Source: Phoenix dactylifera (taxonomy: Eukaryota; Streptophyta; Magnoliopsida; Arecales; Arecaceae). Taken from it: a DNA stretch of 64,000 nt. Location of the stretch: assembly GCF_009389715.1 (NCBI RefSeq), contig NC_052397.1, positions 11,047,595 to 11,111,594 on the forward strand. The letters are read 5' to 3'. Below, piece after piece: positions 20,996 through 49,411 of this stretch. Each line of letters opens with the position of its first letter. Position 1 is the first letter of the stretch. A program made the translations under genes and the position numbers. The notes beneath the pieces were generated by a model. The model had not been told where the DNA came from. It saw nothing but the letters and a program-made list of their open reading frames with translations, and made no database searches.

Positions 20996-21410
20996 TATAG
21001 TAGGTGATAATGTATTATGGTATCTCTCTAACAATTTTTCTAGTTAGGTGATAAAATTGATTAAATGATTACTAGATGTTTAGACGAGAATCACATAGAT
21101 GAAAAATTATTTAGCATATTCTACGTGCGTACTTCAATAAGGCTTGGAATATACTTCATATAGCCTGGCACACAGTTTAGCCTTTCTAACACACAATTAA
21201 GGATTGGACACAATTAATCTAGCATGGTATACATATATCTTAGCACATAGTTAATCAAGGATTGCACATAGTTAATATCCATCCTCTCTAACTTTACCTT
21301 GTTCATACTTTTTTACATTGTTGACGTAGTAGCAACAAAAATACAACGAACATTCATGTTTGGTCAAATACAAAATAAAACAACATGTAGAATTGCACTG
21401 CACTCAGAAG

Positions 21411-22773
21411 TCAACGAGCTATAAGTTGAGAAGCAATATGATCACGCAGAATATCCATCTCACGGTTACCCAATATTTGGCTTTGCTCTGCACTCAGTTC
21501 TTCCTGTGGTTCATTAATCTCTAAACAATCAGAAGGGAGTAGATCCTCATTATCATCATAAGGCTGAAACTCCAAATCTTTGATTGCACGATTTCTAATA
21601 AAATTATGAATAGCCATGGAAGCCACCACAATTTGGACTTGTTTATGATAAGAAAAGTTGGGCATGGTACTCAACATTCTCCATCTACTTTTCCAGCATC
21701 CGAATGTCCTCTCAATAGTGCATCTCAGGGAGGAATGTGCATGATTAAAGATTTCATGCATACCCTTTGGTTGACTTCCACGTCGAAAATCTGGTAAATG
21801 ATACCTCTCCCCTTTGTAAGGCCCCATATATCCCAACATGTGAGGATATCCTGCATCCACCAAATAATATTTACCTGCATATATATATATATATATGAGT
21901 TAGTATTTTAATATATTTAATGAAAGTTAAAAAAGTATACTTGCGATCATAATATATTTAATTAATATGCATACATCTATATTATAATATATTTAATTAA
22001 AATGCATACCTCTAGGTGGGTGTGGAAATTGGAGCTCTTTTCTGTGTATAGCATCTAAAAAAATACGAGTATCATGAGCAGTACCTTTCCATCCAGCACA
22101 AACAAAAGTGAAACGCATATCAAAATCACAACAAGCCATAACATTTTGTGTAGGAATCCCTTTTCGGCCAATATATGGTACTTGTTTGGATGGAGAAATT
22201 TTCACTGGTATATGGGTGCCATCAATTGCTCCAATGCAGTCCTTAAAATAAGGCCACCAACGATGATCATTGCGGATTTTACTTGGAATATTTTTGAACT
22301 CTTTATCCAGCGGGCTAATAATATCCTTGGACATCCTTAAAACAGCATTTAAAACATGGGTGAAATATCTACTAACTGTTTCTCCGGAATGTTGAAATCT
22401 TTCTTGAACCATCCTATTCCCAAACCCATGTCCTAGAATCATCAAAAACATAGACACCAGCTCCTCAACAGGAATATATCTAGAAGCCTTTAAACCATAT
22501 TTGATTTTCAATTCCATGCACAGATTAATAAATACATGTTTTTCCATTCGAAATTGTTGTTGGCATCTATATGGATTGCCATCTAAAATTTCTGATACAA
22601 ACTTGTATCCGGTTTGATAAGAGGTCCTACAAGGCTCCTTTTCAATATATTTTGTGTAATATTCAGTAACCATAACCAACAGTTGCAGTTAGTAGAATAT
22701 TATAATTATCATCATCAACTATCTCATCTTCACTAGAATAATTCTCCTCAGAACTATTGTCAATGCTGCCCAT
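21411..22773 (-). pseudogene. Harbinger transposase (DDE_Tnp_4), one frameshift near the N-terminus
   Basis: This encodes the PIF/Harbinger DDE nuclease. The main exon (22679 to about 22007) has an HTH-like N-terminus (FRMEKHVFINLC) and the first catalytic Asp in GAIDGTHIP (codon 22223-22221). An intron of about 125 bp (GTATGCAT... to ...TATATGCAG near 21878) leads into exon 2. That exon has the second Asp in YLVDAGYPH (21857-21855) and the Glu in CTIERTFGCWKSRW (21713-21711), so the triad is complete. Exon 2 ends at 21411. An acidic leader starting at ATG 22773 (MGSIDNSSEENYSSEDE) runs into the transposase in a different frame. One extra G in 'actgttGgttatgg' (about 22681) would explain this. 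Translation could instead start at the Met at 22679, shortening the N-terminus. Confidence 0.88.
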
Positions 22774-23019
22774 ACCTGTAGAAAACATATTATGCAAAAA
22801 ATAAAACATCTGTAGCAAATAAAACAAATGATATATAAACATATAATGCAAATACATATTATATCACAAAATCATAACATCTATAATATCCATAAAATCA
22901 ATAGCATCCACGATACATTATCCAAGAGATACCACAAATACATATAGTCCATCATCATTCTATAATAGAAGTTCAAAATTAAAACTACAAAACATATTGC
23001 CATAATAGTACGTCAACAA

Positions 23020-24100
23020 CTACTTATGTAAGTTTGACATTCGCTTGAGCCATTCAATTCGAAGATTGGTATCTCGGAGTGCCATAAACATCTCTCGATG
23101 TTCTCTTTTAAGGAGCACCTCAGCAGCAATCAAAAGCAGTTCAGGTTGTGCTACCATCTCAGGCATCATATGCACTACGTCCATCACCTCATCGATACTA
23201 CGTCCAGGTTTATCAATCATCTTGGATGGCACTGTACTTTTCTTCTCCACTGCATCAATAAGACGACTCAATTGCTGAGATAGTTGTGCAGCACCCCCAA
23301 CCCTTCTTGCATTTCTTATCATGCAAAGTAGAGCTAACTCTTTTCTTTCCTCTCTCTTGGATAGCATCAGATGCAAGAGTAAGGTTAACATTAAAATTAT
23401 CAGTGGGAACATCATCAATTTTATATGCAATCATATGATGGTCCTCATCTGAGTCACCTAAGCCCTCAAATGTATCATTATTAACCCCATCCAACCTCTC
23501 ATATACTTCAATTGTGTCCTCAACATCCTCCTGCACCAGTAAAGCTGGTGCCCAGGCCCCCTCCCCAGTGGCATTAGTACCTCTAAATAACCTATCCAAT
23601 TTTATTGCATGTTGTAGACCACGTTCTCGAAACTTAGCTGCATCAGGAATCTCCTGCAAGTTAACAATATATAGTTGTCAATAGTAGTTTATAGGTTAGT
23701 ATAAAAAATCTTACAAATATTAAACTAGTGGCACGTGTACCTGCAATTTTTTTTCCCACCATGCATTTGGTGCATCTATTGTATTTCTAACAGGATCCCA
23801 TCCAAGTCTTGTTTCCTTTCCCACCAATTTCATCCAAATGCTCCAATTTGCTTTCAGGTTATCCCACTTATTTTTAAATTTTTTGTAGTCATATTGATTT
23901 CCAGTCTTCTTATTGAATTTCTTAATTATATTGGCCCACCCTAACCTATTGAAATGTGTTCCTGGGCGATTACCAGCTTCAACTTTACTAATACATATAT
24001 CGATAAACTCCTCTATCAATTTTTCATTCCAAATGGCCTTCCTCTTCTTCTCATCTTGGGTTGATGGACCAGCAAGGGTATGTTGGCTCTTCTTAGACAT
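23020..24100 (-). pseudogene. Harbinger ORF1: Myb/SANT-like DNA-binding protein, one frameshift
   Basis: This is the DNA-binding partner that Harbinger transposases need for nuclear import and end recognition. Exon 1 (24100-23741) starts MSKKSQHTLAG and carries the Myb/SANT-like domain: WNEKLIEEFIDICISKVEAGN, HFNRLGWANIIKKF and KFKNKWDNLKANWSIW. An intron, 23740-23654, has GT-AG borders in phase 0. Exon 2 begins EIPDAAKFRERGL and reads to about 23300. There the frame changes: the C-terminal part, VGGAAQLSQQLSRLIDAVEKK ... LKRMSNLHK, continues in another frame to the stop at 23020. A one-base indel in the G-rich run 'aagggttgggggtgc' explains it. It lies upstream of, and in the same orientation as, the transposase, the usual arrangement. 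Confidence 0.86.
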
Positions 24101-25530
24101 TTGTTCTTCTTACAATGCAACAACAAAGACATGAAATATTTTGTCAATCATAAGTCATGATTTCAACCATATGAATAAAACACCTTGTAAAGCATATTAG
24201 AAAAACAATGAGATATTAGACAAGGCATGCAATAAGAGGCAATTATTTGATAGAACTATAAGCATTTTCACCAGCTTGCACAGTTCTTAAATGGATCTCA
24301 GGCTTTACTGGTTTCGTCTATGTTCTTGACCATTTTTAGGCTAGTCTTAGAAGACCCATGTACTCTTTATTGTATACTTTCTCTGTATTTGGTCAAGCTA
24401 GTCTTCTTAATAGAACTCTATGTCTAATGAATGTCAATTATTTGATAGAATCAAGGATTTGATGGATGGCTATTATGATACTAAATAAAGAAATTGCCAT
24501 TACCATGTATAAACTTACTCTTCCCATTCCTACCTAGGTAGCAGCATTTTTGCCATGATCTCAGGAAAAATTTGCCTACGTACCATGATCTCCTTTCTTT
24601 TTAAATTTCAACTTCCAGATCTTGTAGGACTCTCTTTCTATTGGAAATAAGATCAGATTAATAGGAACATTTATTACCTTATTTATCTCCAGTATCTCGA
24701 TTTTATATTGTAAATCCATTAGCACCTACAGGTTCTTTTCCTTTTAACTCTCAGAACATGCTCATATGATTCTGTAATAAATATAAAAATTGATTATTTC
24801 TAAAGGAATAAAAGTAATAGCGCACCGAGATTTCTCTTAAAAAAATTGTGAGATTGTTTGGAAATTCCCAATGCTCGGATCATGAAGACTAAAGTTGAAT
24901 CATGTAATGGTTACGTTGTATGCACATTATTTGTCAGATTAATAAGGTCCAGGGGGCATGTCTCGTAATTACGATCGAGATGAATGAGAGGGATGGCATC
25001 AGTAAACTATTTCACTAAATTAGAAAACCTGTGCCTAACTGCACTATAAACCTGTGCCTAACTGCACTTTGTTGCTTGCACTAACTACGCTCAGGCCAAA
25101 ACATATTACATTGTCAAGTTCCCAATATTAGCCAAATACGATGTTGAGTACCCAATATCTTCTTGGCAATATTGGAAGCATTAGTAACAATAGTATGCAC
25201 CACTAAAATGACAATAAGGTGTAAGATCTTTTAATTAAAACATGCTTCAATATTCATCAAATGTCCATTCTTGGAATCACTAGCAGTGAATTTTGTTGAA
25301 GAATGACAATGTAAGTAGTAATTTGGACTTTAAGTCAAAAGTATAAGCATAAAATATTTTGGCTAATTAAGAATAAAAAGGAGTATTCTTACTTCTTAAA
25401 GCTTCAAAGTGCAATGGAGATTGCAAATTTCTGAGCCACTAGGTGATAGTACCTGACAGAAAATGATCCAATCATAAGTTAGAAGGCAACAATAATATTA
25501 TCAAACTCCATTAAAATTCTAAATACAAAT
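24101..25530. other. Noncoding interior of the Harbinger element
   Basis: AT-rich DNA upstream of ORF1 with no reading frame of note. 'cctgtgcctaactgcac' is duplicated in tandem at about 25029-25075. This is presumably the promoter side of ORF1; no motif is strong enough to call. Confidence 0.45.
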
Positions 25531-25534
25531 CTAT

Positions 25535-26110
25535 CTTTCTCTCTGTAACAGAGAGAGGAAAAACTTGGTCCACCCGAAGAGAGAGGAAAAATTTGGTCCA
25601 CCCGAACCACAGAGGGAAATCTCTCTCTCTGTAACAGAGATTTCTCTCTCTGTTCTCTCTCTCTCCCTTTGTAACAGAGAGGGAAAAGAGCTCGCCGTTC
25701 CACCAGAACTCCCTCCCTGCAACAGAGAGAGGATCTCGCGGTCCACCGTGGACCGCGAGATCATTAAGCGTACAGAGAGAGGATCTCTCTGTGTTATAGA
25801 GAGAGATCCTCTCTCTCTGTAACAGAGAGAGATCCTCTCTCTCTGTAACAGAGAGAGATCCTCTCTCTGTAAGGGGAGGCACCGTGGACCGTGGTGGTGC
25901 GGTCCACGGTGTCGCGGCTTGAGCATGGACCGAGGATCTCTCTGTAACAGAGAGAGATCCTCCCTCTGTAACATGCGATCATGGTCACCCGTGGACCGCG
26001 AGAGAGGAGGCATCGTGGACCGCAATGCTGCAGTCCACGGTGTCGCGGCTACAGCCTGGACCGCGATGCCGTGGTCCAGGGGTGGTTCTTCGTGGTCCAT
26101 GCTCGAGGAG
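25535..26110. repeat. Hairpin-forming CTGTAACAGAGAG array in the Harbinger right end
   Basis: The word TCTCTGTAACAGAGAGA, itself nearly palindromic, occurs about ten times between 25550 and 25980, often joined by 'gatcctctct'. Interspersed are 'ggtccaccgtggaccgcgag' palindromes (25740-25770, 25880-26050). The long Ser/Arg/Leu-rich frames here on both strands are products of the repeat, not genes. Confidence 0.85.
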
Positions 26111-26567
26111 GACTGGCCGCGAGGTTGATGATTAAAAAAAAAAAAAAAACAATACATTGATTTTGGAAGGTGCAGAGAAGGATTAAATTTTTTTTTATTC
26201 TAAAATGTAGTTCAAGGGATGCATACAAAAATTGAAAAAAAAATACCTTCTCTTACGGAAAGGAGTCTGACGGCTAGGGTTCTTGGCTCAAGCAGATTTT
26301 TTAGGTTTATAAAGGGGCAAGCTATGTAATTATTATATTTTAATGTGGGCATTTTTGTCAAAAATAGAGCTTTCCGAAAAAGCTGAAACAGCTTCCTCCC
26401 AAAAGCTCCAAATTGGAGCTTCTGCCAAAAAGCTGTTTTCAGCTTCCCGCAAAAGCTGAAACAGCTTCTTGGAAATTTTACCAAACACACTTTTTTCCCT
26501 AAAAGTACTTTTGGAGGGCCAGAAAGTGCTTTTTGGCCCTCCAAAAGCTCCCCCAAACAGGGCCTAA

Positions 26568-27690
26568 GTGCATAGCTGTAAGAATATTCAATACTTTTTT
26601 TGGCTCCTCTAAATCTTGAATATGCTGATCATTATTTTTGTCCACATTGATTTGGAGAAGATATCCACTTTCTCTGCTAAGAGTTTCTAGTTGTATCACA
26701 CTGTCTTCCTGTTCATGATCTCCTAAAAATCTTCCTCAATCGTATAATACTTGATGCAAGACTTTTAATAGATATAATTCGTGCTATTCAATTTTTCGAT
26801 CCTAATGAGAGACATGATAGTACACACTAACATTGATGTATAGTGAACTACTAGAAGCTCTTTAACTATATCGAGCTACGAATATACGAATCACTAGTCA
26901 TAAAGGATATAGCTCTAATACCATATAGAATTGCATACTTTTTGATATAAATCGACATGTTGGTCCTAGATCCAAAACAAGGATAAATTAAATGAACCAA
27001 CAACAATAGAAGAAAAATATAAAAAATATTAGAGAGAGGAGAAAGAATTTTTATTCAAAGAAAATATTTGAAAACCAAAATATAGATTCCCTCTAATACA
27101 CCTCACACAAGAAATTTTCCTCAACAAAAAGCCTCACATTACTATCCCCTTACAAAAGTTGAATTAAAAAAAGCTGACATCCAAGAGTCTTCCCATTGTA
27201 GTTTGATTGTCTATTGAACCTAAGGCTCAACCTAACTAACATGAACCAATATGATCATTAGTTAGAATTATTTAATTAATATCTTGGAGTTCATGATGCT
27301 TTTAACATAATCCTCTATAACAAGTTAGAAGAAACTTTGAAACTAGATTGTGTTTTTGAAAGGCACTGGATGCAATTTTTATTGTACCACAAAAAGTTAC
27401 AATCCACCAAAGTTTTTTGTATCTTTGCCCTTGAAATGCTATAACAGCACAGGTCCTTACTCAAAAAAGCTAGTCGAAATATATTATTTGGTTCTTTGGC
27501 CCCATATAAATATTCAAAATTTACCAAATGCATAGCCGATGAGAGAGTAAATACATGATCGCATAGATCCTTACATACTTCCCCCATTTAAGCTAACAAC
27601 CTTACCAAGCTAAAAGTCCAAATCTATTCACAAGTACGACAAATCCAATCACAAACACCACTATCAACTCATGGCCAACTCAAATGGGCA
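26568..27690. other. Decayed DNA with a copia primer-binding-like site
   Basis: 'ctctaataccatat' near 26903 resembles the minus-strand form of the plant copia primer-binding site (TGGTATCAGAG), followed by LTR-like AT-rich sequence with 'tttttattcaaagaaaa'. This suggests the 5' end of an old minus-oriented copia element. No coding remnant is clear, and the frames at 27315-27587 are unsupported. Confidence 0.35.
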
Positions 27691-27696
27691 GAAGTT

Positions 27697-28695
27697 GAAC
27701 TGTTAAGAGGGGCAGGAATACTATTGGCCGATCTTGCGAAAGGACGTGGTCAGTTCATCAAGTGGTGTGACCGATGTCAACGCCATTCAAATACCCAACA
27801 ATGACCAGCGGTGCCACTGACGCCGATCAACGCCCCTTGCCTGTTCGCGCAATGGGGGACCAACATCCTTAAACTTTTTTTGGTGGCAACTGGGCAGCAC
27901 AAGTTCCTCTTTGTAACGGTAGACTACTTCACCAAATAGGCAGAAGCTGAACTAGTGGCTCGGACTACCTAGGTGAAAGCACGAGACTTCATCTGGTAGA
28001 CCATTATTTGCAGGTTCGGGCTCCCCTGGGCAATCATCACAGATAACGGGCGTTGGTTCGACAATGCTAAATTCAAAAAGTAATGTACCGAGCTCGGAAT
28101 CAACCACCGATTTACTTTGGTGGCGCACCCCCAGTTTAATGGAGAGGCCGAAGTGACTAACCGAACAACCCTACAGGAACTAAAGGTGAGCTGGATCGAA
28201 CGAAAGGGTTATGGGCTGAAGAGCTCTACAATGTTTTGTTGGCATATCGAACAACGTCTCAAGTTCATACTAGGGAGATGCCCTTTAACCTTGCCATTGG
28301 AACAAAGGCAATAATCACACTTGAGATCAGACTTTCATCGTTTCGGATAGAAAGTTTTGACGACTAGACAAATTTAGATCAGCTCCGGGTCAACCTCGAC
28401 ATATTGGAAGAAACTAGAGAATGAGCTCAAATCCATGTGGCGGGTGTACCGGCAAAAAACAGCTCAGTACTACAACTCAAGGCTCAAAGGCAAGCTATTC
28501 CAACCTAGTGATCTCGTCTTAAGAAAGACTGAAGCGTTCCAACCAGGAGAGCTTGAAAAGTTGAGCCCAAATTGGGAAGACCCATACTGAATAGCCGAAG
28601 CTATGCGATCGGGAGCGTATAGACTAGAGCAGCTCAAACAGCATTCTGATCCCATAGACTTCGAACTCGACAACCTTTACATCTATTATCAGTAA
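27697..28695 (+). pseudogene. Ty3/gypsy integrase remnant
   Basis: Translation with frameshifts gives EYYWPILRKD, then FIKWCDRCQRH (the HHCC zinc region), then FAQWG, FLFVTVDYFTK, FGLPWAIITDNGRWFDNAKF and HPQFNGEAEVTNR (the integrase core). It ends with a tail like KLSPNWEDPY...YRLEQLKQHSDPID...NLYIYYQ before the stop near 28695. Together these mark the C-terminal half of a gypsy polyprotein. At least six stops interrupt it, several in place of an expected Trp (TK*AEA for TKWAEA). No reverse transcriptase remains upstream, so this is a truncated, long-dead copy. Confidence 0.85.
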
Positions 28696-28839
28696 GGTTC
28701 ATTGTAGTCTAAGCTTATTTCTAATAAAAATCCACTTATTCTCTTTGTCTTTGAAATCGGATGACTATTGCAACTGTACTCGACTTGGGACACCCCGGGA
28801 ATGCTTAAGCCCCACCAAAGGAGACACCCCAGGGACGCC

Positions 28840-29515
28840 AGGGGCCTTCTTAAGACCGAGCCTATTCAAAATTCTTCTAGGCTCATAGTCCAGAGATGAA
28901 CAACTAAGGGGCCACCCGGAGCTGACTCGAAACTTTTTTCAACCGAGCCCACTCGAAAATTTCTCTAGGACCATAGTCTAGAGATGAACAACAAAGGAGA
29001 CAACCCATGCCGACCAAGGACCTCCTCAAGCTGAGTTCATTTAGAATCTCTCTCTTGCTCCATATATGACCAACAAAAGAGACACCCTAAGCAACCTAGG
29101 ACCTTTCTCAAGTCAAGCTCACTCAGAATCTCTCCAGAGCAAAACTCCATAGATGACCAACAAAGGGGACACCCTTGGCTGACCTGGGACCTCTTGAAGC
29201 CGAACTCACTCAGAATCCCTCTGGAGCAAGACTCTAGAAATGACCAATAAAGGAGACACCCCAGGATGACCTGGGACGTCCTCAAGCCGAGCTCACTCGG
29301 AATCCCTCTAAAGCAAGACTCCAGGTATGACCAACAAAAAAGACCAATCCAGGCCGACCTGAAACCTCCTCAAGCCGAGCTCACTCAGAATTCCTTTGAA
29401 ACCTAAGTCCGGAGAATATCAATAGAGGAGACAATCTGAGCCGACCTGGGACCTCCTCAAGCTGAGTTAAACTCCCAATTTCTTGGGAGCTGAACTCCAG
29501 GAAGATTGACTGAGA
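28840..29515. repeat. 87-bp minisatellite downstream of the gypsy remnant
   Basis: The marker 'gaccaacaaa...gacaccc' occurs at 29068, 29155, 29242 and 29329 (period 87 bp). More diverged units run left to about 28840 and right to about 29515, giving some seven or eight in all. Each unit includes 'gacctcctcaagccgagctcactcagaatc'-type words. It probably belongs to the 3' untranslated or LTR part of the gypsy element. Confidence 0.85.
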
Positions 29516-30540
29516 AGCTGAGCTCTACACCGCTCCTTCCTAGATGAAATTAAACGTAAGGGAAAGAGTTCAGTGCAACAACCCGAACTAAAACCAAGAA
29601 ATGAACAAGTAAGGATAGTCAGGGACTTTGAAAATTTTCTTTACTTTTATTGTCTTTTGGTATATATATTTACCTTATTAGAAGGCGAGCAAAAAGAGGC
29701 TACAAGAAAAGATCGAAACTTGGGCGATGACCTAACTCAAGTAAAGAAAACAAACAACAAGAACAAAAACTGAAGTCATGTTCTTTAAAAAATTCTTTAC
29801 TTTCATTAATTTTGAGTTTTACACTTATCTCAACAAAAGTCGAAAAAGAGAGTACATTAAGCTTTGTTTACCTAAGCAAAAGAAGAAAAAACAAAAAAGA
29901 TGGAAAGGTAGGATTTCACTCCTCGCCTTCCCAACCTTCGCCGCTGCCAAGGTTGCCATCGCCACCGCCGATCTCACCCTCCTCAAGGTCGTCGCCATCT
30001 CCATAGCTATTGTTGCCGTTGCTGTTAGCCCCGCCTTCTTCGCGGCCTTCCCCGCCCTCGCCTTTGCCGACGACGTCGTCGTCGAGGCTGTAGTAGTCCA
30101 TCCTCGAGACGAGCCATTGAGCTCGAAGCTCAGCATTTGTTGAAGCCCTTATTGAAGGCATCGGTCACGTTCTACAAGGTCTCCCAAGGGTCGTCAAAGC
30201 TGAATTGGACTTTTTGGATTGACCCATCCTGGAAAGTAGGTCTTAGAGGAGCGAGCAGGAGTTGAAGGGCCCTACTCGGAAGCTAACAAGCTCGGACTTG
30301 ACCAAGCCAAGCCACGAGCCTTGGGGGGAGACCAGCGTGGAGATATAGCGGTAGCAGAAGGTTGGGTGAGGACAACCCCTTCCGGAGGAGCCGATCTCAT
30401 TGGCGACACAACCTCAACCTCAGGGTCGAGCTCCATAGTCCCCCAAGGTACCTCAAGAAAGACTTCAAGAACCAAAGCCTTAGCAGAGAAAGGAGAGAGT
30501 CGCAGTGTCTAATTTAGATAGTTAAACAAGGAGAGTAGAA
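29516..30540. other. Probable gypsy-derived noncoding block with a GC-rich segment
   Basis: 29920-30130 is GC-rich and made of imperfect 'gccgccgatctcaccctcctc' and 'gacgacgtcgtcgtcgag' repeats. It gives Gly/Glu-rich or Ala-rich frames on both strands. No conserved domain was recognised. It may be the leader or gag region of another gypsy copy, but this is a guess from context. Confidence 0.3.
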
Positions 30541-30866
30541 ATGATGCTAAGAGGTATCTGCTAACTAATTTTTCTTCAAATCTCTCTCTATCTTTAGCAG
30601 AGAAAGGACCTTTTCTTGCGGCTAGGATCTGCCAACCAAGAGATGCTTATCAACTAATAACTAAACCGCAAGTCTGCATTAATGAACAATTTAATCATCG
30701 GAGACTGTTTCTGGAGAAACACAGTTCTGCAACACTCAACAAGACTCAAGGAGAATGAACAAGACAAGGCTAAAATCGATAAAAATTAAAAAAAAAAAGA
30801 ATAATCCGTTGCAAAAACAAATATAGAAGAGAACTTTTGATCCAATAGTCCAAATGGACAATCATG
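30541..30866. other. Downstream flank of the snoRNA cluster, with a stable hairpin
   Basis: CTTGCGG at 30615-30621 pairs perfectly with CCGCAAG at 30666-30672, with further pairing inside. A second short hairpin (actgtttct...agaaacacagt) lies near 30704-30726. A two-hairpin layout recalls H/ACA RNAs, but I found no convincing H or ACA box on either strand, so no RNA gene is called. Confidence 0.35.
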
Positions 30867-30946
30867 TATGCATCAGATAATAAGCGGAGTGTAAATCCAC
30901 ACAACCACTTCAGTGTGTAGGATAAGATAATTGCATCAATTGCCAT
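30867..30946 (-). ncRNA. C/D-box snoRNA, dual 25S rRNA guide (copy 1)
   Basis: Minus-strand order: GGCA (30944-30941), box C-like TTGATGC (30939-30933), guide CTTATCCTACAC (30926-30915), box D' CTGA (30913-30910), guide CTCCGCTTATT (30889-30879), box D CTGA (30876-30873), then TGCA. The first guide is complementary to GTGTAGGATAAG and the second to AATAAGCGGAG. Both are conserved stretches of plant 25S rRNA, and both sit just upstream of a D-type box, as 2'-O-methylation guides require. Box C departs from RUGAUGA and the terminal stem is short (GCA/UGC). The copy at 31053-31136 keeps the same guides, which supports function. The rRNA matches are from memory. Confidence 0.75.
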
Positions 30947-31052
30947 TCCTCCAGAATTCTAAACAAATTTCAAAGCTTGCAATCTTGCAAAAATGTTAGC
31001 ATATCGAGTAAAACTAATGAAAACATGACTCAAGAGTGCAGTAGTAAGAAGA

Positions 31053-31136
31053 GGGGCATCAGCTAATAAGCGGAGTTTTAGTCCACACAACATTTCGGCG
31101 TGTAGGATAAGATTTCACAATCACATCACTTGCCAA
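31053..31136 (-). ncRNA. C/D-box snoRNA, dual 25S rRNA guide (copy 2)
   Basis: A paralogue of the snoRNA 190 bp downstream. Minus-strand order: stem GGCA (31134-31131), box C GTGATGT (31129-31123), guide CTTATCCTACAC (31111-31100), box D' CCGA (31098-31095), guide CTCCGCTTATT (31075-31065), box D CTGA (31062-31059), stem TGCC (31058-31055). The terminal stem GGCA/UGCC is perfect. Sequence outside the guides and boxes has drifted, while both guides are identical between copies, a pattern expected from selection on the guides. Predicted targets are two sites in 25S rRNA. Confidence 0.8.
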
Positions 31137-31199
31137 CTTAACAAATTTTGTTCTTAATACATGAATTTTTTGCTGCAAAAAATAGGAATTTCGAGTGGA

Positions 31200-31330
31200 C
31201 CATTTGACACCAAAGCAACCGAGTCTTATGCATTGGGCTGGTAAGCCAACCATTTAGCTCTCTGCACCCGTTATATCTCCCCAGACAAAGAATAAAACCA
31301 TCTGAGAAGAGAGTAAGTGGTGCAATTCCT
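31200..31330 (-). other. Possible structured RNA between snoRNAs
   Basis: On the minus strand GCACC (31323-31319) pairs with GGGTGC at 31269-31264, and CTTCTCAGA (31309-31301) pairs fully, counting G-U pairs, with TCTGGGGAG (31285-31277), leaving a pocket between the stems as in H/ACA RNAs. The plus strand cannot form the upper stem fully. A second hairpin, GGTTGG-ctta-CCAGCC, follows near 31245-31230. No clear H (ANANNA) or ACA box was found, so this stays a candidate. Confidence 0.3.
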
Positions 31331-31386
31331 TTGCTACAAAGCTTATATAACCAAAAAAAAAAAAAAAACTATCACAAGATTAAAAA

Positions 31387-31489
31387 GTGGTGTCAGTCGA
31401 TAGCTCAGTAGATGCGTATTTAATCAAAGACACAAAATAGATCTCAGATGTCCAGACATAGAAAATTTTCGGCATCTTCATCATACCAT
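31387..31489 (-). ncRNA. C/D-box snoRNA, 18S rRNA guide
   Basis: Minus-strand order: TGGT (31488-31485), a perfect box C ATGATGA (31484-31478), guide CTATGTCTGGAC (31461-31450), box D' CTGA (31447-31444), box D CTGA (31396-31393), then CACCA. Flanking UGGU/ACCA forms a terminal stem with one unpaired base. The guide is complementary to GTCCAGACATAG, which occurs in plant 18S rRNA in the conserved '...CCAGGTCCAGACATAG' segment; the guide starts two bases upstream of D'. No target was recognised for the region upstream of box D. Another CTGA at about 31404-31407 could be the true box D. Confidence 0.72.
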
Positions 31490-31551
31490 ATCAACAAACA
31501 CTTTATATGAAATTAAATAAGATAAGTTAAGAGAAACAATAAGGAAATACC

Positions 31552-31657
31552 GATCTCTCAGATGCGTTCCTTGAAACAAGGAAGGCAGAGATTGCAGACA
31601 TTCAACATGGCATCAGTTTCTGACCGCCCGTCTGCTTCGAATCTCATCATCGAGAGT
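31552..31657 (-). ncRNA. U43: C/D-box snoRNA resembling U43 (18S rRNA guide)
   Basis: Minus-strand order: stem UCUC, perfect box C ATGATGA (31650-31644), guide GACGGGCGGT (31632-31623), box D' CAGA (31622-31619), later CTGATGCC (a possible C'), box D CTGA (31561-31558), stem GAGA. The guide is complementary to ACCGCCCGTC, the universal segment near the 3' end of small-subunit rRNA. The run GACGGGCGG-N-CAGAAACTG is, from memory, the hallmark of U43/SNORD43, which directs 2'-O-methylation of a C in that segment (C1703/1705 in human numbering). It is the first RNA after the promoter. The 29-codon frame over the same bases is coincidental. It is longer (about 105 nt) than animal U43. Confidence 0.87.
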
Positions 31658-31784
31658 TCAAAAGATTAGAAGGAGAAGAAGAAGAAGAAAGAGAAATAGA
31701 TACACAAAAGAAAATAGAGATTTTTGATGAAGAAAAGAGCCACAGGAAGACGAGAGGGAGAGGAATGGGAGGCTGCAACGTCCG

Positions 31785-31930
31785 GCAGGGGTTTAAAAAG
31801 GGCTTCCCCCTTTGAGCCCTAAAACACGAACAAGGGTTCGATGCCAAGGGTATCCAGCCGCATTCTGAAGACCAGAAGCACTGGGCTGTAGTATGATGCT
31901 CCAAATTTTGGGCTCAAAACGGGCCAGATT
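31785..31930 (-). promoter_or_regulatory. Candidate promoter of the snoRNA cluster
   Basis: Upstream of the first snoRNA lie two Site II elements (TGGGCT on the plus strand at 31882-31887 and 31909-31914) and a GGGCC at 31921-31925. A telo-box-like CCCTAAAA follows near 31819-31826, then a TATA-like TTTTTAAA (minus) at 31799-31792. Site II plus telo-box is a known combination in plant snoRNA and ribosomal-protein promoters. Their order and distance (about 130-270 bp before the U43-like RNA) fit minus-strand transcription. Confidence 0.6.
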
Positions 31931-34005
31931 GTATTGCCTTATCGACACCCAAAGGCGCACATGATCCTTCTCCCTTGGGCAGAAGTCAATTTTGATTTTT
32001 TTTTTAATTTCCAAATTTTGTTGGGTAGGGTTGGTTTTAGTTTAGCTTTTTATTTTAATTTTTTTAAAAAGTTTTACACTTCTAAATAACCTATACTAAA
32101 ATATTTCAAGCAAAATAATTTTTAAATTGTAAAATAAATAATTGGTAATTGTATTGTTAGCGATATATGAAAGCTTAAAAATAATAGGATAAGACATTGT
32201 GAATAAAAATAGTTACAAGAAAAATCATTCAAGAAGGTTCCGTCTAGTTACTTATGAGACAAAGATCATACACTGCACATATTGGGAAGCTAGTTTTGCC
32301 TTTCTGTAGATATCATTCTGTCTCTGTAGCATATATTGCTTGACGAATAAAATTGATATGTTTATGTTAACTGTCTTAATAAAAAAAATAAAGACTCAAT
32401 TCGAGCCATTTATGATATTTTTTATTATATTTGACATACTACTTGAAAATTGGATCGACCAGTAACTTGGAAAAAAAAGTTTGGTCAAGGATAAATCAAC
32501 CGTTGGATCAATCTAAGTCAACCCATTCCATCTAATATATTAATTATTAATTACTTATATGTAAAATATTAAAATCATAAATATATATAGATTTTTTAGA
32601 AAAATATGAAATAAAATATGCATGCTTTGTTGAAATAGTTTTAGGTTGTTTAAACAAATGAATTTTGGAAATTGATATTTCATGCAATGTAAAAGGGAGC
32701 CTTCTCAAGTTTTTTCATAAAACTTGTCTTACATAAATTAGAATTTGTTAGTGTCATTTTTAGAAATACTTAGTTGCTCATAGACAACTCATAGACTCTA
32801 AAAGTCTTAGATTCCTCTTCTTCTCAATCTCTTATAGAGTAAAATTGGACCTTTTTTAGGCAAACCATAATGTTCAGTGAAACACCATAAAACTGCAGTC
32901 CTATTGCAAAATATCAAACAGAAGATTAGTAGGAAGTAGAGGGAAGAGGCTTTTGGCATTTGATGAGAGAAGGTATGAGAGTAAGGAGGGGAGGCCTCTT
33001 GCGGCGAAGAGTGGTGGGAGATGACGCTACCACCGTCATTGGCAAGGGAGTTCGGGAAGAGGAGGGCATTGGGAGTGTGAGAATTAGACTTTCATTTTGA
33101 TGTGAGAAACTTTGAAAATAAAGAGTGGGAAGAGGGATAGCGGACTGCATCGTTACAGTTATCAGATTGTTACTATCCTGATTGTGTGGGGCTGGAGGCG
33201 GAGAGGAGAGTTAGGGTGGCTAGTGGGGAAGGAGAAGGAAGGACAGGTGGGGGGAGGGAGAGAGAGAAAGAAAAAGGGGGAGAGAAGGGACAAATTATTG
33301 GTGATTGTTGGCCTGCTACCATGATCTAGTAAGCATGGTGGAGTAAGAGGGGTTGAGAGAGAGGAGAGAGTAAGCAAGACCTACTTGTTGATGCCTGCCG
33401 ACATACCACAAGGTTTGGCGAGGGTGAGTAAGGCGAGGGAAGAGGAAAAGAGAGGGTTCTGTTGCTGCTATCTTTTGCCTATCACCAAGCTTCAAGGTGA
33501 GCACGATGAAGGGAGAGAAAGAGAGAAAGCAAGGGAGTGGCTACTTGCCATCGGCCATCCTTGAGGATCTACCAAGGAAAAGGGGGATGGGAAGAGAAAG
33601 TGAGGGAGAAGAGAGGATAAGAGAGTGGGTTCAAGCCTTAGTTCGAGGTGTGATGTTTATTGAAGCAAGGTTCTTGTTGCTTACCATCAACCATCCAAAA
33701 ATTCATGTCGACGCTAGAGAGAAGAGTCTTGTTCAAAGAGGAAAGAGGCAAAGAGAAGTGACAAACAGAAAGTATTCAATCAAATGCTAATTACCTAATA
33801 TGATAAAGTTTTATTCGGTTTGAAACTGGCTGATTCACTTGAACCCAAATGATTTGAACAAGCCGTTGGTTCAATGGCGGTCTAAAACAAATATTATAAA
33901 ATGCACCGATTTTTATGACAATCCAGATTTAGGTGGTTATCTAGGCCAGATGCCAATCGGTTGACAATTCTACCGGTTCAACCCGATTGGTCTAGTTTTT
34001 AAAAC
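31931..34005. other. Intergenic DNA with possible degraded elements
   Basis: 32040-32880 is AT-rich with no features. 32930-33790 is purine-rich on the plus strand (gagaggaga-type runs) and yields low-complexity frames on both strands that I do not support. 33830-34000 has 'ccgttggttcaatgg', 'ggttcaacccgattggtctagtttttaaaac', a terminus style seen in some plant nonautonomous DNA elements, but no matching opposite end was found. Confidence 0.35.
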
Positions 34006-34010
34006 ATTGC

Positions 34011-35945
34011 ACAACGATGGGACTTGAGTCTCTCCATATTGAAAGAGAGTTTGTAGATGCTTATATAAAAAGATAAGTACAAAATGAAATTGCTCGTGCA
34101 ATCTACATGTGGTTAAAATGAAAACACAATGACCAGATAGTTTACAATAAGTAAGCTTTTTCACAACAAAAAAAAGTTGCAAGCATGGGACACGCTGTTG
34201 GGATAAACTTTGACTAGGTTAATACGCTCTTGCAAGTCAATGGGCCAACTCATGAACCAGGAGCTTGGATCGAAGAAAAGTGAAGCTAGCGTTAAGCGGA
34301 GAGACCCTATGTAAAAATATCAGCAACCTAATCTGCATTGGAAATGAAACAAATTCGAAATTGTCAGCAAGCCACACATTCATGAACAAAGTGAAAATCA
34401 ATCTTCATATGCTTGTTGCAGGCATGGAATGTTGGATTAGCGGTGAGAAATATGGCACTAAGATTGTCACACCAGAGAAATAGCGAATCATGGCAGTAGA
34501 CACCAAGTTAAGGAAGCAAATGATGGATCTAGATGAGATCGGTGGTAGCATTGACTAACCTTTTGTATTTAGATTCAATATTAGAGCGAGCAATAATGTG
34601 TTATTTCTTGGCAATCCAAAAAATGAGATTAGGACCAAGAAACATAGAAAATACACTGATAGAGTGACGATCATTTGGGTTCCTAGCCCAATTGGGATGA
34701 AAGGAATGAAGTTGTAAGAAAGAAGACTTAGCGGTCAAGAGTTCATGGTGAATAGCGTGTTTCAAGTAACGGCGAATATGTTTTATAGCTTTTCAGTGAA
34801 GAGTAGTAGGGCAATGCATAAACTGATAGATATGATTAACAGAAAAGATATTGTTACGTTGCGTTAACGTAAGATACTAAAGTACTATGACAGTGCTACA
34901 ATATCGAATAGGATTACCTATAGGATCACCATCATAGAGGGCCAAATGGGAGCTTGTAGCAATAGGCATGGACACAGGCTTAAAACCAGATATGGGTTTT
35001 TATTGGCATGTGTAAAGCATGTTGGTTTATTCAAAAAAATCATATTCTTTCTATTGATACCATATAGAACAGTATGCTATCCGGAGTAGGTTGGCCATGC
35101 CGGCCTAAGATCTGAAAAAATTACTAAAAAAATAAGCAGCAATAGTAAAAAAAATTATAGAGTGAAAAAATAAATTTATTCAAAAAGAAATAAATGCCGA
35201 AACAATGAGTTTGGCTACTCTTGCAAAGGACCCTCAAGCCTTGGATCTCATAACCTCTTCCTTACCACAAAAGACATCTCACTAAACTCTCCCTCAACTA
35301 CGTCACCATCTCCCACTAGATCTCGAAAACATCACTATCCCACTTCAACTAAAAAACAAACTCAAGAATATTTTGCCTAAGGCTCAACTTAACTAAAATA
35401 GAACAGCACTAAAAGACAAACTATTCCAACTAGAAAATTAGAACAAGAAATAAATACAAACTAGAAATAAATTCTAGTATAAGTAGGACAAGCAATGGAC
35501 TTCCAACATTATCTATCTAGTCAAAGAAGCTGATGCACTATTTTGGAGAAGAAGTCGAACTCACGGCAAAGCACGAGAAGCAGATGTAGTAGTCTATAAA
35601 AGTAGCAAAACATGTAGAATATGCGGACACAACAAAGAATGAGAATATTGAGGAGAAAAAAGAAAGGAATAGACGCAAAAGAGCCATAGGAGCAAAATCG
35701 GATTAGTCGTGATTCTGATACTATGTCAGCGATGGGATTTAAATCTCTCCATATTAAAAAGGAGAATTTATAGATGCCTTATATAAAAAGATAAGCACAA
35801 AATGGAATTTTTCGTGCAATCCGCATGTGGTTAGAATGAAAGCACAATGAGGAGACAGTTTTACATCAAGTGAACTATTTTCTAACAAAAATAGTTATAG
35901 ATATAGGCTAGGCGGTTTGGATAAACTTTGACTAGGTCAATAACA
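34011..35945 (-). mobile_element. Truncated Ty1/copia element
   Basis: A 215-bp block at 34011-34227 is repeated directly at 35727-35945 (both run from 'gatgggacttgagtctctcc'-like sequence to 'aaactttgactaggt'). They flank copia RNase H/RT remnants and a primer-binding-like site ('attgatacca', about 35053). Read on the minus strand, the 5' LTR is about 35945-35067, starting TGTTATTGACC. The left LTR keeps only its U3 part, so about 650 bp is missing. Most of gag-pol is also missing. Confidence 0.65.
34255..35000 (-). pseudogene. copia RT/RNase H remnant
   Basis: Minus-strand translation shows WIAKKQHIIARSNIESKYKRL, then [28 protein letters not shown], then ADQVADIFT. These are the order and wording of a Ty1/copia RNase H domain, preceded by a weaker RT C-terminus near 34700-35000. 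Stops interrupt it and the rest of pol is absent. It adjoins its 3' LTR fragment at 34011-34227, as expected. Confidence 0.75.
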
Positions 35946-37503
35946 TTGACAAAACTCTGAAGTCATCCTGGCATTAGGAATCAAAGGGATGAATTATACA
36001 GTAATTATAGTCCAGGGTTCCAGAATATTTGCTTCACATATATTCGGCCTATTCGGACGTCGGGTACCATTGCTAGATGATCATTTCGATTAGTAAAATA
36101 AGTTGTTCTAGTGCTACCGACTTAGGTTCGAACCTATGGAGTCACACATATAGAAGTTTTTAGATTGATCAAATGGCTGATTGATGATTAAGAATCATTC
36201 AGGGATAATTTGGTTAATTCGATTGACAAATTATCCTAAGCAAAAGTTGCATTAAAATAATTATTGAATTATTGGAGGGTTAATTAGTAATTGGATTACT
36301 AATCAATTCAATTTGATTGAATTATTGGACTTTAATTAAGCCAAATTGAATTAGATTCAATTTGAGCTAAATTAGGGTTTGACCTAATTCGATCGGATTC
36401 GACCCAAGCCGATTGGGCATAACCTAATTGATCGGACTTGACCCAATTGGATTGGAATTGACTCAAGTCAATTAAGAGTTCTTATTTTATGAGGATTAAG
36501 AGTCCAAATAATCAGAATTTATTATGAAGAAGAATTCTTAAAATTTAGGACCCTAGCTTTTTCCTTGGAGAAGAAAGACACCTCATCCTTATTCCTAAAA
36601 GCAGTGGTGTCTATCCTCTTTATTTTTGGCCAATTTTTGGCATGAGGAAAGAGGAGGCTGTGGGGCTATTTTTCAGAAAAATATGGCACCTCAAATCTTC
36701 CTAAAAAGATAGAAATCAAATCCCTAATTTGTAGGGACTGCATGACGCATCAAGCAGGGTGGCATTAAGCTGAAGTTTGGGGTGCAAAAACCCTATGATT
36801 TTTAGGGATTCTTGGCACAAGATTAAAATAGAATTTGTTCATCTCTTAGCTTTCGATTTACTAAAATTTTTTGGAAATTTTATCAGCCAAATTCGTTGGC
36901 CAAAAAAGGTGTGAGGCGTGGGGGGTCTTTTTACTTTTGGCTATAAAAAGACCCCCATGCCTAGGGTTTGCAAATAAGATGGTCTTTAGAAAGGGTTATA
37001 AATTCTGAAAAAATTCTGAGAGCCAGCCACCTTCTCTCCTCCTTCTTCTCCTTCATCTCCATCCTTCATCCTCTCGAAGAAGAATCAAAAGTTGAGTGCT
37101 TCGAGGGAGAAAAGTTCAGTCACTGCAGCACCTCTGCATGAGCTAGCACTCCTGCAGTTGTGGATCTTCCTAGAGCTTCGCGTGGACTATCCGTAGAGGC
37201 CGGACGCATGTGCGGCTATACAAGGTGATTAAGGTATCATCAAAGTTTTCAAAGCAAAAAGGTATGAGATCTGATCTCATTAAAATTAAGATTAGAAATC
37301 AACTAGGTTGCTGAAATTCTGCATGACTACATGTTAAACATAAAATCATGCCTACTTATTTAGAATAAATGTTTAAAGTCCTGGATCTATTTTTGTTGTA
37401 AAGATATGATCTCTAGCATGCATAGAAATTAAATAGTTTAATTCATGCTTTCGCTGTAAAATTTTAAAAAAATATATGCATGCGACCACCAGGGTTCCCA
37501 ACA
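35946..37503 (+). repeat. Outer copia 5' LTR, truncated at its left
   Basis: Matches 57431-58976, starting at 'ttgacaaaactctgaagtc' and ending '...agggttcccaaca', directly before the primer-binding site. The first 680 bp of the full LTR, present at the right end, are missing. Confidence 0.88.
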
Positions 37504-37504
37504 G

Positions 37505-37517
37505 TAGTATCAGAGTC
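37505..37517 (+). other. Primer-binding site, outer copia
   Basis: TAGTATCAGAGTC, one base after the 5' LTR end, matches 10 of 12 positions of the plant copia site TGGTATCAGAGC that pairs with initiator tRNA-Met. Confidence 0.75.
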
Positions 37518-39222
37518 ATAGGTTCAAAGTAGTTTAAACATTTATGCCTGAAACAAGTTTTCTAATCCTAGTAATCAAGTAATCTGATTGGAATGATCAC
37601 CAAGCCATCTGGTCATAGGAGAAAGAAGGGCTTATAACCCTCTTTTGCTATTCAATCCTTGAAGATGACCATAAAACGAAGATTAAAAGTAGTTTTAATC
37701 TTTGTAATTAAATCTAAAATCATAGATATGTTTAGATCAGATTTAAAAGAGATTTATGATTGATTTAATTGCTGTTTTTACATGATTAATCAGATCTGAA
37801 AATTAGTTGCATGTGATGCATGAGATCTAGGTAAATTCATGTTGATGTATATATGATATAAAGAACATGAATAAATCTAAAATCATAAACTTGTTTAGAT
37901 TATATCTAAATAAAATTTATGATTTATTTATTTTCTGATTTTGTATGACAAATCAAATCTGAAAATAAATGCATATGATGTATGTTGTTTAAGTTAATTC
38001 ATATTAGTTTGTATATGTGATATATGAACATAAATCATCTAAGATTTAAACATGAATTAAATCCAAATTTTAAACATGATTAATTACAAATCTCAGATCT
38101 AAAAAATAAGTTTTAAGAACTGAAACTTTGTAATTATTATGTCATTAAGAATAATGCAATGATCTGAATTTTCATAAGCTTACACTTAATGGAGAATTAA
38201 GTGATATGAAAACCTAGATCTAGAATTGTAACTCAATTCAATGACATTGCATAATTCATGGAGCATTTGGCTTAGCTCAAATCAAGTTCTTAAGATTGGG
38301 TTAGACCTGGGGTTAGAATCAAACATGGTCCAATTAGAGTTAATTGATCAAATCTAATTAAATAGTAACTAGATTAGGTCAAGAAAACTCTAGGTCAAAT
38401 ACAATACTTGTTGATTGATCAATTCCATGTCTTTGATTAGACCAAGATGAAACTTGATTGATGCTCAGAGGTAGAGTCCGAGTCATTTGAGTAATCAAAT
38501 CAAAATTGATTAACCAATCGGTGTCTAAGGTAAGTTTGGCAGTTTTGACTGGTGGTTTTTAATTGGGAGCTACTCGCACTGATTCATCTTTGTCGAGTTA
38601 ATGGCATATCCCTTCCACCGATCTCACTTACCTGGCTGACATGGTCAATCACATTTTGATTGGATCACTTAATAATTCGAGTTGACCCATGCCTTAAGAA
38701 AAATCAGTATGACTGATTTAGGTGTCTCCTTAACCGGATTGAATCTAGTTCTTATTAATCTGACTTGATGAAGTCAGTGGGAGGATCTAGATTAACCGGT
38801 TCTTCTCATATATTCTCAATTAAATCAAAATCTCTAAATTTATTAGGTCCCTAAAATGAAATAGTTATGGGAATAACTAGGTCATAGCCTTCCGTTAAGT
38901 TGGATGATAATGAGTCCAATGTTTCAATAATCATTGGAGGCGCCACACGCCTGGTGCTTATCGGACATTGGAATTATCATTCAATATATGATGAGTTGAG
39001 TGTACCTACCAATAGGTACATATGGGTTGGCCGAGCCACACTTGGGTCCATATGCGATCTATTGGGTTCTAGTGCCCACTAAAAAGTTAAGTGTAATTCT
39101 TCGAATTTGAGGTAGAGGCTACAAATTTGTATAAAATAGTGGAAGGACCTTTGGACTAAAGTCCAAGTCTTAAGGGTATTGTCAATTCATATACTGATAG
39201 CCGATTTTCTTTTTACGCAGAA
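37518..39222 (+). other. Leader of the outer copia element
   Basis: AT-rich leader between the primer-binding site and gag, with repeated words such as 'atttatgattgattta' and 'aatcagatctgaaaat' (about 37740-38110) that indicate old local duplications. No reading frame is supported. Confidence 0.5.
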
Positions 39223-39882
39223 ATGGCCACTAGTTTGTCACTTCGTTCATTGTTGGATAATGACAAGTTGACTGGACCCAATTTCAATCACTGGCTTAAG
39301 AAACTTAAGATTTTGTTAGAGCATGAACGGATCCTTTATGTGATAACGAATCCAGCACTTGAGCAGCCTGCTGCTAATGCACGGGGTGCGGTCAGAGAAA
39401 CTTATCAGAAGTGGCTCAGTGACCGTAACATTGTCCGATGCATTATGCTTGCTGCAATAAGCGATGAGTTCAGTCGCCGATTCGAGAATGCCCAGCCCGA
39501 AGAAACTGTTCAAGTGTTGAACGAATCTTTTGGCACTCCCGACGACGTTGAAAGGCACAAGACTAGTTGTGCTATTTTCAGCGCACGAATGAAAGATGGG
39601 GCATCCGTGACTGATCATGTATTGTACATGATTGAGTTGATCGAGCGTTTGAGCACTCTCGGTTTTTTCCTTCATGATCAATTGGGGAAAGATGCTATAC
39701 TGAACTCTCTTCCTGGTTCGTACTGCCCATTTCTCACCAACTTTCGTATGACGAAACCTGTAGTAAATTATCACCAATTGTTGGGTTTACTACAAACTTT
39801 TGAGAAGGATCACCAACTCCTAAAAGGGTCGGTGAATTTAGTGGGAGGTTCGTCCAAGGATCGTGGTCCCTTTAAGAAAGGG
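39223..39882 (+). pseudogene. gag of the outer copia, N-terminal part
   Basis: An open frame from MATSLSLRSLLDNDKLTGPNF carries a UBN2/Retrotran_gag-like domain: FNHWLKKLKILLEHERILYVI, KWLSDRNIVRCIMLAAIS and LLQTFEKDHQLLKG. It ends ...SSKDRGPFKKGKN at the insertion point of the inner element. The 3' part continues at 51326 with lysine-rich sequence and a CCHC knuckle reading CFYCKKQGY-stop-KRIC. There the knuckle His is Tyr and the next Trp is a stop (TGA). Without the insertion the two halves would read on, as the host side of the AAGAA duplication shows. Confidence 0.85.
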
Positions 39883-39887
39883 AAGAA
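39883..39887. repeat. 5-bp target duplication, left (inner copia)
   Basis: AAGAA next to the LTR start TGTTGCCC; repeated at 51321-51325. Confidence 0.92.
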
Positions 39888-41783
39888 TGTTGCCCAGATA
39901 GACAACCCAAGAGGGGGGGTGAATTGGGTTTTAAAATAATTATTGCAATTAAAAGACTTTGTGAGTAACTAATTAAAACTTTTGCGAGTGGATTAATTAG
40001 TTGCTATATGCAGTGGATGAAGGAAAAGGAAGAGACAATCAAACAATCACAAACACAAGCAATTTTATAGTGGTTCGGAGCTAACCCTTGCACCTACGTC
40101 CACTCCCCAAGCCTCACTTGGGAGTTCACTATAATCCCTCGGATTACAGCCGGTTGTTTTACAAGTTCACAACCCAACTTTTTGTTTTACGAGATCACAA
40201 CGAACTCGGTCGGTTTTCACAGGCTCACCGACTAGAACCACCCGATTGTTTTCCCGAAATCACAATCAAACCCTTACACCGTTGGTTTTAATCTTGGCTC
40301 ACCAACAAACCTTAACACCCTTGATTCAATCCCCTGATTGAATCAAGTAAGTAACAAATAGTTTGACACAAACAAAAAGAAAGCTTCTCAAAAGTGTATT
40401 TAAATAATTTAAGCAAGAAAGAGTAAGAAGCCCTCAAACTGATTTTGGAGATGGAGGAAGGGGCTTTTCAAACTCTTTGACTCCTCTTGAATTTGATGTA
40501 GACTTGCTGTCAGGAGGAGAGCCTTGAATGTGAGGAAGACAGTTGGAGAGTCGACTTCAATGCACTTCTTCCTTCTTTTTCGTGTAATCACTCTAGAGAG
40601 CTTTTGGTTGGTGGAAATCCCTTTAGCTTTGAATGGAGTCTCTCTTTCCTACTCTATTACTGTTCACTCAGGCTATTTAAGCCATTCCCAAAGAAAAATA
40701 GCCGTTAGACACAGATTCAAGGCCGTTCTGCACATTCTGCAACTCCTGACAAAATGCCCGTTGGGATCGGAGTCGACTCGCTCGATCAGGAGTCGACTCG
40801 AGTGTTGCTGGAGTTGACTCATGCTTTACTGGAGACGACTCGCCCACTGTTCAAAATTTGAAATCGAGTGCCGTCCCGTTCTGGAGTCGACTCGGCTGAA
40901 CCTGGAGTCGACTCGCCAATTGTCCGAAGATGACTTTCCCTTCTGGAGACGACTCGATCTTCAGGCTTCAAAACTTATCCTCTCGGTTTTGCTTCCTCGA
41001 GTCGACTCGGATTTCCTTGGAGTCGACTCGGCTCTCAGAGCCTGAAAGACAGGTCTTCTGTCTTTGAACTTGATCTGTCTCGGAGTCGACTCGGACTTTG
41101 CGGGAGTCGACTCGGCTCTCAGACACGAAATATCGGTCTTCTGTCTTTGGAGTTGAACTGCCTTGGAGTCGACTCGGACTTTGCGGGAGTCGACTCGGCT
41201 CTCAGACATCGAAGTTGGCTCTCTGACTTTTAGCCTTGCATTTCTCTGGGAGTCGACTCTTGCTTCCTTAGGAGTCGACCTGCCAACCGTCGGAGTCGAC
41301 TCAAGTTCTTCGAGAGTCGACTCGGCTCTCAGAGTCCAATATGGCTTCTCTGTCTTTCTGTCTGTTACTCCATGGAGTCGACTCGTACTATGCTGGAGTC
41401 GACTCGGCAAGCATCGGAGTCGACTCGAATTCTTCAGGAGTCGACTCGTTGACAGGTTCTGAGATGAATCTTTCTGTCCGGCTGTCTGTTCTCAATCGGA
41501 GTCGACTCGTAATGTGCAGGAGTCGACTCGAGCTTGTGCCAGTGCTTCTGATACGCTTGGAGTCGACTCGTAATCTTCCGGAGTCGACTCGAGATTCAGA
41601 CTTTGGTTCAAATTGATTTCTATACTTAGCCAAAGTGTATTGAACCAAAGCTAGAGACACTTAAACATAAATTCACAAATATTTGACTGAAACACTAGAT
41701 TGAATTCATTAGTATAACATAAGATATACTCAAATGCTTTGAGCTCATCAAAATCAAATAGGGTTAAAATCAATCACTCCACA
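39888..41783 (-). repeat. Inner copia 3' LTR
   Basis: Plus-strand ends TGTTGCCCAG...CACTCCACA; on the minus strand the LTR starts TGTGGAGTG and ends GGGCAACA. The neighbouring polypurine tract (minus AAAAAGGGGGAGAT, 41797-41784) marks it as the 3' LTR. It contains the GAGTCGACTC array. Frames here on both strands, rich in ESTR or VDS, are products of that array. Confidence 0.95.
40760..41600. repeat. Array of GAGTCGACTC palindromes in the 3' LTR
   Basis: The 10-bp palindrome GAGTCGACTC, usually in the 12-bp form GGAGTCGACTCG, occurs about 25 times in 840 bp at irregular 20-60-bp spacing, with a few one-base variants (gagacgactcg, gagttgactc). The sequence between copies is not repeated, so this is a dispersed short motif rather than a simple tandem repeat. 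The motif is intact in nearly every copy. Confidence 0.95.
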
Positions 41784-41797
41784 ATCTCCCCCTTTTT
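41784..41797 (-). other. Polypurine tract, inner copia
   Basis: On the minus strand AAAAAGGGGGAGAT abuts the 3' LTR and would prime plus-strand DNA synthesis. Confidence 0.88.
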
Positions 41798-42515: not shown

Positions 42516-42519
42516 GATA

Positions 42520-44058: not shown

Positions 44059-44154
44059 AGGTCGGAGATGACTCTAGAGTTTTTGAAACAGTGACGGCGG
44101 TGAATAGAAGTGTCGATTGAACGTTTCGATTAGGGTTAAAACATCAAATTTCCG

Positions 44155-44335: not shown

Positions 44336-44476
44336 CCCAAAAATCATGTTATTTTTGTGCCACTAGAGATAGTTATAGACTTATCCATGATTTAGGAGCT
44401 GAATTGATGATCATAGATAAGAAGTCCTATGTTTGCCTTAGACTAATCCTCAAAATCTATGAATTAGAGGAGAGTA

Positions 44477-47565: not shown

Positions 47566-47594
47566 TGGCTGCAAGACACTCCTACACAAGGAAA

Positions 47595-49376: not shown

Positions 49377-49411
49377 TTTGATCTTTTACTCTTTTGGTAA
49401 AAGAGTTCCGG

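Follow-up and report, generated by a model that had tools for sequence, protein, structure and literature searches.

Four box C/D snoRNA genes were found on the minus strand at 30867-31655 of the 64-kb Phoenix dactylifera window, by which is meant the whole stretch of DNA analysed. They occupied 789 bp with one promoter-like block, and their order in the sense of transcription was U43-type, SnoR166-type, snoR16-a and snoR16-b. Box C/D snoRNAs carry a C box (RUGAUGA) near the 5′ end and a D box (CUGA) near the 3′ end; a terminal stem joins C and D, and immediately upstream of D or D′ lie at least 10 nt of antisense sequence, the fifth nucleotide of which marks the methylated site. The RNAs and their predicted guides were as follows.

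31552..31656, minus strand: U43-type box C/D snoRNA (boxes, stem and guide; ends approximate); C box ATGATGA 31650-31644, D′ box CAGA 31622-31619, D box CTGA 31561-31558, stem 31655-31652 with 31557-31554 (4 bp)
31623..31632, minus strand: U43 D′ guide, 10 bp to 18S rRNA, D+5 at C1645
31388..31488, minus strand: SnoR166-type box C/D snoRNA (boxes, stem and guide; ends approximate); C box ATGATGA 31484-31478, D′ box CTGA 31447-31444, D box CTGA 31396-31393, stem 31488-31485 with 31391-31388 (4 bp)
31450..31461, minus strand: SnoR166 D′ guide, 12 bp to 18S rRNA, D+5 at C1219
31052..31137, minus strand: snoR16-a, Rfam RF00296, 69.3 bits; C box GTGATGT, stem 4 bp
31098-31095 and 31062-31059, minus strand: snoR16-a D′ box CCGA, guide to 25S U2456 (12 bp), and D box CTGA, guide to 25S U48 (11 bp)
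30867..30947, minus strand: snoR16-b, Rfam RF00296, 63.4 bits; C box TTGATGC, stem 3 bp
30913-30910 and 30876-30873, minus strand: snoR16-b D′ box CTGA, guide to 25S U2456 (12 bp), and D box CTGA, guide to 25S U48 (11 bp)

An earlier note on this DNA had claimed four same-strand candidates within about 0.8 kb, with boxes C and D and 10-12-nt guides before D or D′. The four candidates were found on one strand within that length, and all boxes and guides were read directly in the sequence, with the core TGATG present in the C boxes of all four RNAs. Terminal pairing, claimed for each, reached 4 bp in three of the RNAs but only 3 bp in snoR16-b.

Rfam and folding analysis

The two snoR16 genes were the sole Rfam matches at the gathering threshold in the 64-kb window. 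Both matches spanned the full 86 positions of the RF00296 model and exceeded its cut-off (45 bits), copy a with CCGA as its D′ box and copy b with TTGATGC as its C box. Rfam therefore called two of the four RNAs, and the U43-type and SnoR166-type RNAs were without a match over cut-off. A permissive scan of 1.6 kb returned six rows, namely the two snoR16 genes and four weak matches, all far below their cut-offs. In that scan the SnoR166-type RNA had a weak match to ceN106 (20.7 bits, cut-off 60, E 0.32). Another, to TeloSII_ncR30 (16.7 bits, cut-off 86), covered the leader together with the beginning of U43, but no match of the U43-type RNA to a U43/SNORD43 model appeared up to E 5, such a match being an aid to detection and not part of the definition of U43. 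Fold energy z scores of the four RNAs (-2.80 for U43, then 0.23, -1.35 and 0.46) were unremarkable save for U43.

A fifth snoRNA, lying between SnoR166 and snoR16-a, was considered and rejected. The spacer there holds one hairpin:

31263..31324, minus strand: hairpin in the SnoR166–snoR16-a spacer (z -3.60 for 31258-31332, a segment chosen after the fold had been seen)

The half that follows shows no stable fold (z 0.06), the complete 143 nt fold weakly (z -1.60), and the opposite strand of 31258-31332 also folds (z -3.23). The hairpin stretch was present in all five copies of the cluster described below. It matched no Rfam family in the permissive scan and fitted no rRNA pseudouridine pocket, though 147 of 300 shuffled pockets found a fit.

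Guide targets and controls

Guides were sought before CTGA, CAGA and CCGA boxes on both strands of the 64 kb, with unbroken Watson-Crick pairing at guide positions 4-10 over at least 10 nt, and were compared with plant 18S, 25S and 5.8S rRNA. These rRNA sequences were general plant sequences, not those of Phoenix dactylifera. The 18S so used fitted 35 of 35 sites at offset 0; for the 25S, the best single offset accommodated 51 of 74 sites, and local offsets raised this to 73 of 74. Reference 2′-O-methylation (Nm) sites were those of Arabidopsis RiboMeth-seq as given in Table 1 of PMC8053127, of which 108 of 109 in 18S and 25S were placed. The same table assigns C1645 to U43, C1219 to SnoR166, and 25S U2456 and U48 to SnoR16.1/SnoR16.

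Twenty guide/box matches of at least 10 nt were obtained in the window. Six fell on mapped Arabidopsis Nm sites, all of them in the cluster, and the other 14 fell on none; with these plant sequences, all guide/box matches of the cluster lay on mapped sites, and each of the four RNAs had at least one. First-order Markov controls of the whole window gave a mean of 0.45 Nm matches (maximum 2, n=100) against the six observed, and those of the cluster strand a mean of 0.0038 (maximum 1, n=5000). At 9 nt the whole-window control was less clean (mean 1.67, maximum 5, against 6 observed). The box set was narrowed only once a wider scan, covering 13 box variants, had been run, and two of the six Nm matches depend on CAGA or CCGA, so that with CTGA alone four of six are left. 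Since four of the six come from the snoR16 pair, only three families are independent. The wider scan itself (at least 9 nt, lenient site list) raised 18 'known' flags, of which 12 lay beyond the cluster; 9-nt matches made up nine of these 12, all 12 used boxes other than CTGA, and none was left in the stricter test. Before the D boxes of U43 and SnoR166, no stretch of at least 9 nt matched rRNA with uninterrupted pairing over positions 4-10.

The SnoR166-type RNA matches SnoR166 by target, its identity being given by the single site C1219. Likened in this way, by target site alone, the U43-type and SnoR166-type RNAs have the same predicted 18S nucleotides in D+5 register (C1645 and C1219) as Arabidopsis U43 and SnoR166; the predicted targets of the U43-type and snoR16 RNAs are likewise those of Arabidopsis U43 and SnoR16. 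The 18S nucleotide C1645 belongs to the decoding centre. In PMC7464842, SNORD72 is proposed for methylation of '18S G1219'; position 1219 is C in the 18S used here.

In searches of other collections, an 18S pattern matched one viral-collection contig, L001, which contains a partial eukaryotic 18S and included both 18S target stretches, one of which had been in the search pattern. That contig ends in the partial eukaryotic 18S rRNA gene (L001 3632-4543) and for this reason may not be viral. A plant 25S pattern had no match in the viral-contig or genome-contig collections, a 90-nt 25S query had none among plasmids or phages, and a snoR16 pattern had none in the viral-contig collection.

Copies of the cluster in the genome

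The window is part of contig C6, in an assembly of 773 Mb and 2391 contigs. Among the best candidates, which were scored, snoR16 had at least 10 matches in five tandem pairs, located in the window, at three other C6 sites and on contig C339. The three sister C6 sites lie about 84, 131 and 181 kb from the window in the opposite orientation, so that C6 carries four whole-cluster loci within 183 kb. DNA searches with a 118-nt U43 query and a 107-nt SnoR166 query, by which diverged copies could be missed, each found five places only, the four C6 loci and C339. All four snoRNAs were present in the same order in all five copies.

In the 19.8 kb fetched, C339 aligned to window 21160-39887 at approximately 99% and then to 51321-52428 at 97%. 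Being near-identical over long stretches of the window, C339 is most likely its other allele and not a fifth locus. C339 passes directly from 39887 to 51321. The roughly 11.4 kb that it lacks, in which copia gag, integrase and reverse transcriptase frames occur, is probably an insertion that differs between alleles. A 1.6-kb piece of C339 (L018 4868-6431), whose own alignment falls near window 36-37.5 kb, shared approximately 91% identity with window 57434-58976, so one repeat appears to be present twice in the window. Tandem repeats of about 87 bp were seen at window 28980-29466 and, in the stretches fetched, also beside two of the three sister clusters, where the duplicated unit therefore extends past the snoRNA gene. 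Elsewhere in the window, 61872-63326 on the minus strand encodes a sugar transporter family ORF of 485 residues (Pfam Sugar_tr, E 3e-106).

Across the five copies, 9 of 136 guide and box columns were variable, compared with 21 of 237 columns of the remaining snoRNA sequence, 87 of 548 spacer columns and 70 of 273 upstream columns, the last figure taking in a small shifted block. Guide and box columns were only slightly less variable than the remaining snoRNA columns.

Putative promoter and leader

The following elements were located upstream of the U43-type gene.

31909..31914, plus strand: Site II motif TGGGCT, 264 nt upstream of the U43 C box
31882..31887, plus strand: Site II motif TGGGCT, 237 nt upstream of the U43 C box
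31832..31839, minus strand: degraded telo box; the aligned position is AAACCCTA in three of three sister C6 loci
31792..31798, minus strand: TATA-like TTTTAAA, 148 nt upstream of the U43 C box (putative element, assigned from its motif)
31668..31696, minus strand: pyrimidine-rich tract in the putative transcript leader

Both Site II motifs were also present in C339 and in two of the three other C6 loci; two TGGGCT within 300 bp occurred in 1.3% of the 300-bp segments of the window. The telo box was degraded in the window copy and C339 and exact in all three sister loci, and no exact telo box was found within 1 kb upstream in the window copy. Of the Site II and telo-box-like promoter that had been claimed for this region, the two TGGGCT motifs therefore stand, but the telo-like stretch is a degraded AAACCCTA. 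According to PMC3022908, of 40 non-intronic Arabidopsis loci and 41 independent rice clusters, 34 and 21, respectively, carry telo box and Site II motifs in combination. Judged by its motifs, the putative promoter is of the type reported for plant snoRNA genes, and the earlier claim was correct as to the kind of promoter.

State of each copy

The U43 guide kept 10 bp in all five copies, with the C box ATGATGA in the window and C339 and ATGACGA in the three sisters. The SnoR166 guide was 12 bp in the window, C339 and the 11.261-Mb copy, and shortened to 9 and 7 bp in the remaining pair of copies; its D box was CTGA in three copies and TTGA in two, and its stem was 4 bp in the window and C339 and 2 bp in the three sisters. 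All ten snoR16 D guides were 11 bp. The D′ guide of snoR16-a was 12 bp in four copies and 9 bp in one (D′ box CCGA in all five), and that of snoR16-b was 12 bp in four and 11 bp in one. The C-box core was changed in snoR16-a of one sister and in snoR16-b of one sister. The two snoR16 genes of the window scored 69.3 and 63.4 bits and those of the three sister loci, six in all, 72.0-75.4; snoR16-b of C339 scored 75.4 bits.

The snoR16-b stem was 6 bp in the four other copies and 3 bp in the window, where it is shortened by one missing C (a private 1-nt deletion). Over 30700-31935, changes private to the window relative to the four copies comprised 8 single-base indels plus a contiguous block of 6 substitutions that an insertion together with a deletion would account for; those private to C339 were only three extra T within a T run. 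The changes private to the window being mainly indels, and C339 being almost free of its own, the missing C was read as probably an assembly error rather than a biological defect. The pattern suggests uncorrected indel errors in contig C6.

Interpretation of the locus

On the sequence, we hold with high confidence that the cluster is an independent, promoter-driven plant multi-snoRNA gene of the known U43–snoR16 kind. The earlier reading of a plant polycistronic snoRNA gene is supported by the Rfam matches (two of the four RNAs), by the target sites and by the published U43–snoR16 pairing. That reading had neither named the snoRNAs nor identified the cluster as a known one, nor had it pointed to the duplicates nearby. 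We infer polycistronic transcription of the cluster from its layout and from the literature. In the proposed mechanism, an independent RNA polymerase II gene would be transcribed on the minus strand from a Site II promoter (ancestrally telo box plus Site II) near 31.8-31.9 kb. One precursor would hold U43, SnoR166, snoR16-a and snoR16-b, and its cutting and trimming would yield four box C/D snoRNPs. The guides of these would place fibrillarin for 2′-O-methylation of 18S C1645 and C1219 and of 25S U48 and U2456 (Arabidopsis numbering). Transcription, processing and methylation of this kind in Phoenix dactylifera would be expected from established box C/D biology.

That only the two snoR16 genes are real and the U43-type and SnoR166-type assignments reflect chance complementarity is hardly credible. 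Neither RNA passes an Rfam cut-off, but in both (10 and 12 bp) D+5 falls on the exact mapped nucleotide, which the cluster controls rarely give even once, and U43 is the published neighbour of snoR16. The snoRNAs might also lie in introns of a host gene, whether protein-coding or non-coding: the spacers contain what may be read by eye as intron-like motifs, and plants do have intronic snoRNA clusters according to PMC3022908. This, too, we regard as improbable, with no stop-to-stop frame longer than 94 residues at 30.2-33.3 kb and with Site II motifs directly upstream of the cluster.

Somewhat less improbable, although still unlikely, is that the window copy is a decaying duplicate, weakly expressed or silent, with the sister loci supplying the RNAs. 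Its lost telo box, its shortened snoR16-b stem and the lower scores of its snoR16 genes would fit such decay. Set against them, all six guides are intact in the window, and the sisters are damaged in guides, boxes or stems; only the window and C339 keep a canonical U43 C box together with a SnoR166 that has an intact D box, a 12-bp guide and a 4-bp stem. The stem deletion, moreover, is absent from C339, where snoR16-b scores 75.4 bits, and is probably the assembly error described above. We tentatively raise the possibility that, after fourfold amplification of a three-family cluster, the copies decayed in different parts. The window and its allele would then hold the genome's only fully intact SnoR166 and canonical-box U43, and the sisters would mainly supply snoR16 from telo-box promoters.

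Comparison with known clusters and significance

In the portion of PMC5122169 available, U43a-snoR16 is rice cluster 66 and a snoR16.1-U43.1 cluster is listed in Arabidopsis; the present locus, in which U43 and snoR16 are likewise paired in one cluster, is therefore a further copy of a known cluster. It differs from those descriptions in having SnoR166 between the two, a tandem snoR16 pair, and four loci within 183 kb, and these three features are what is added here to the known cluster. The main-text mentions of SnoR166 in one paper that names it give neither cluster membership nor a sequence, and the available part of PMC9175010, on lncCOBRA1, does not mention snoR16 or U43.

The locus is an ordinary housekeeping RNA gene, a member of a known cluster that has been amplified locally. 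It leaves the understanding of snoRNA biology unchanged, and its value for annotation is moderate: a well-supported and easily missed non-coding gene is added to the genome, with its likely targets named, among them the decoding-centre methylation at C1645. Membership of SnoR166 in the U43–snoR16 cluster is suggested and can be checked in other plants, and the four local copies form a small natural series for the decay of redundant guide RNAs.
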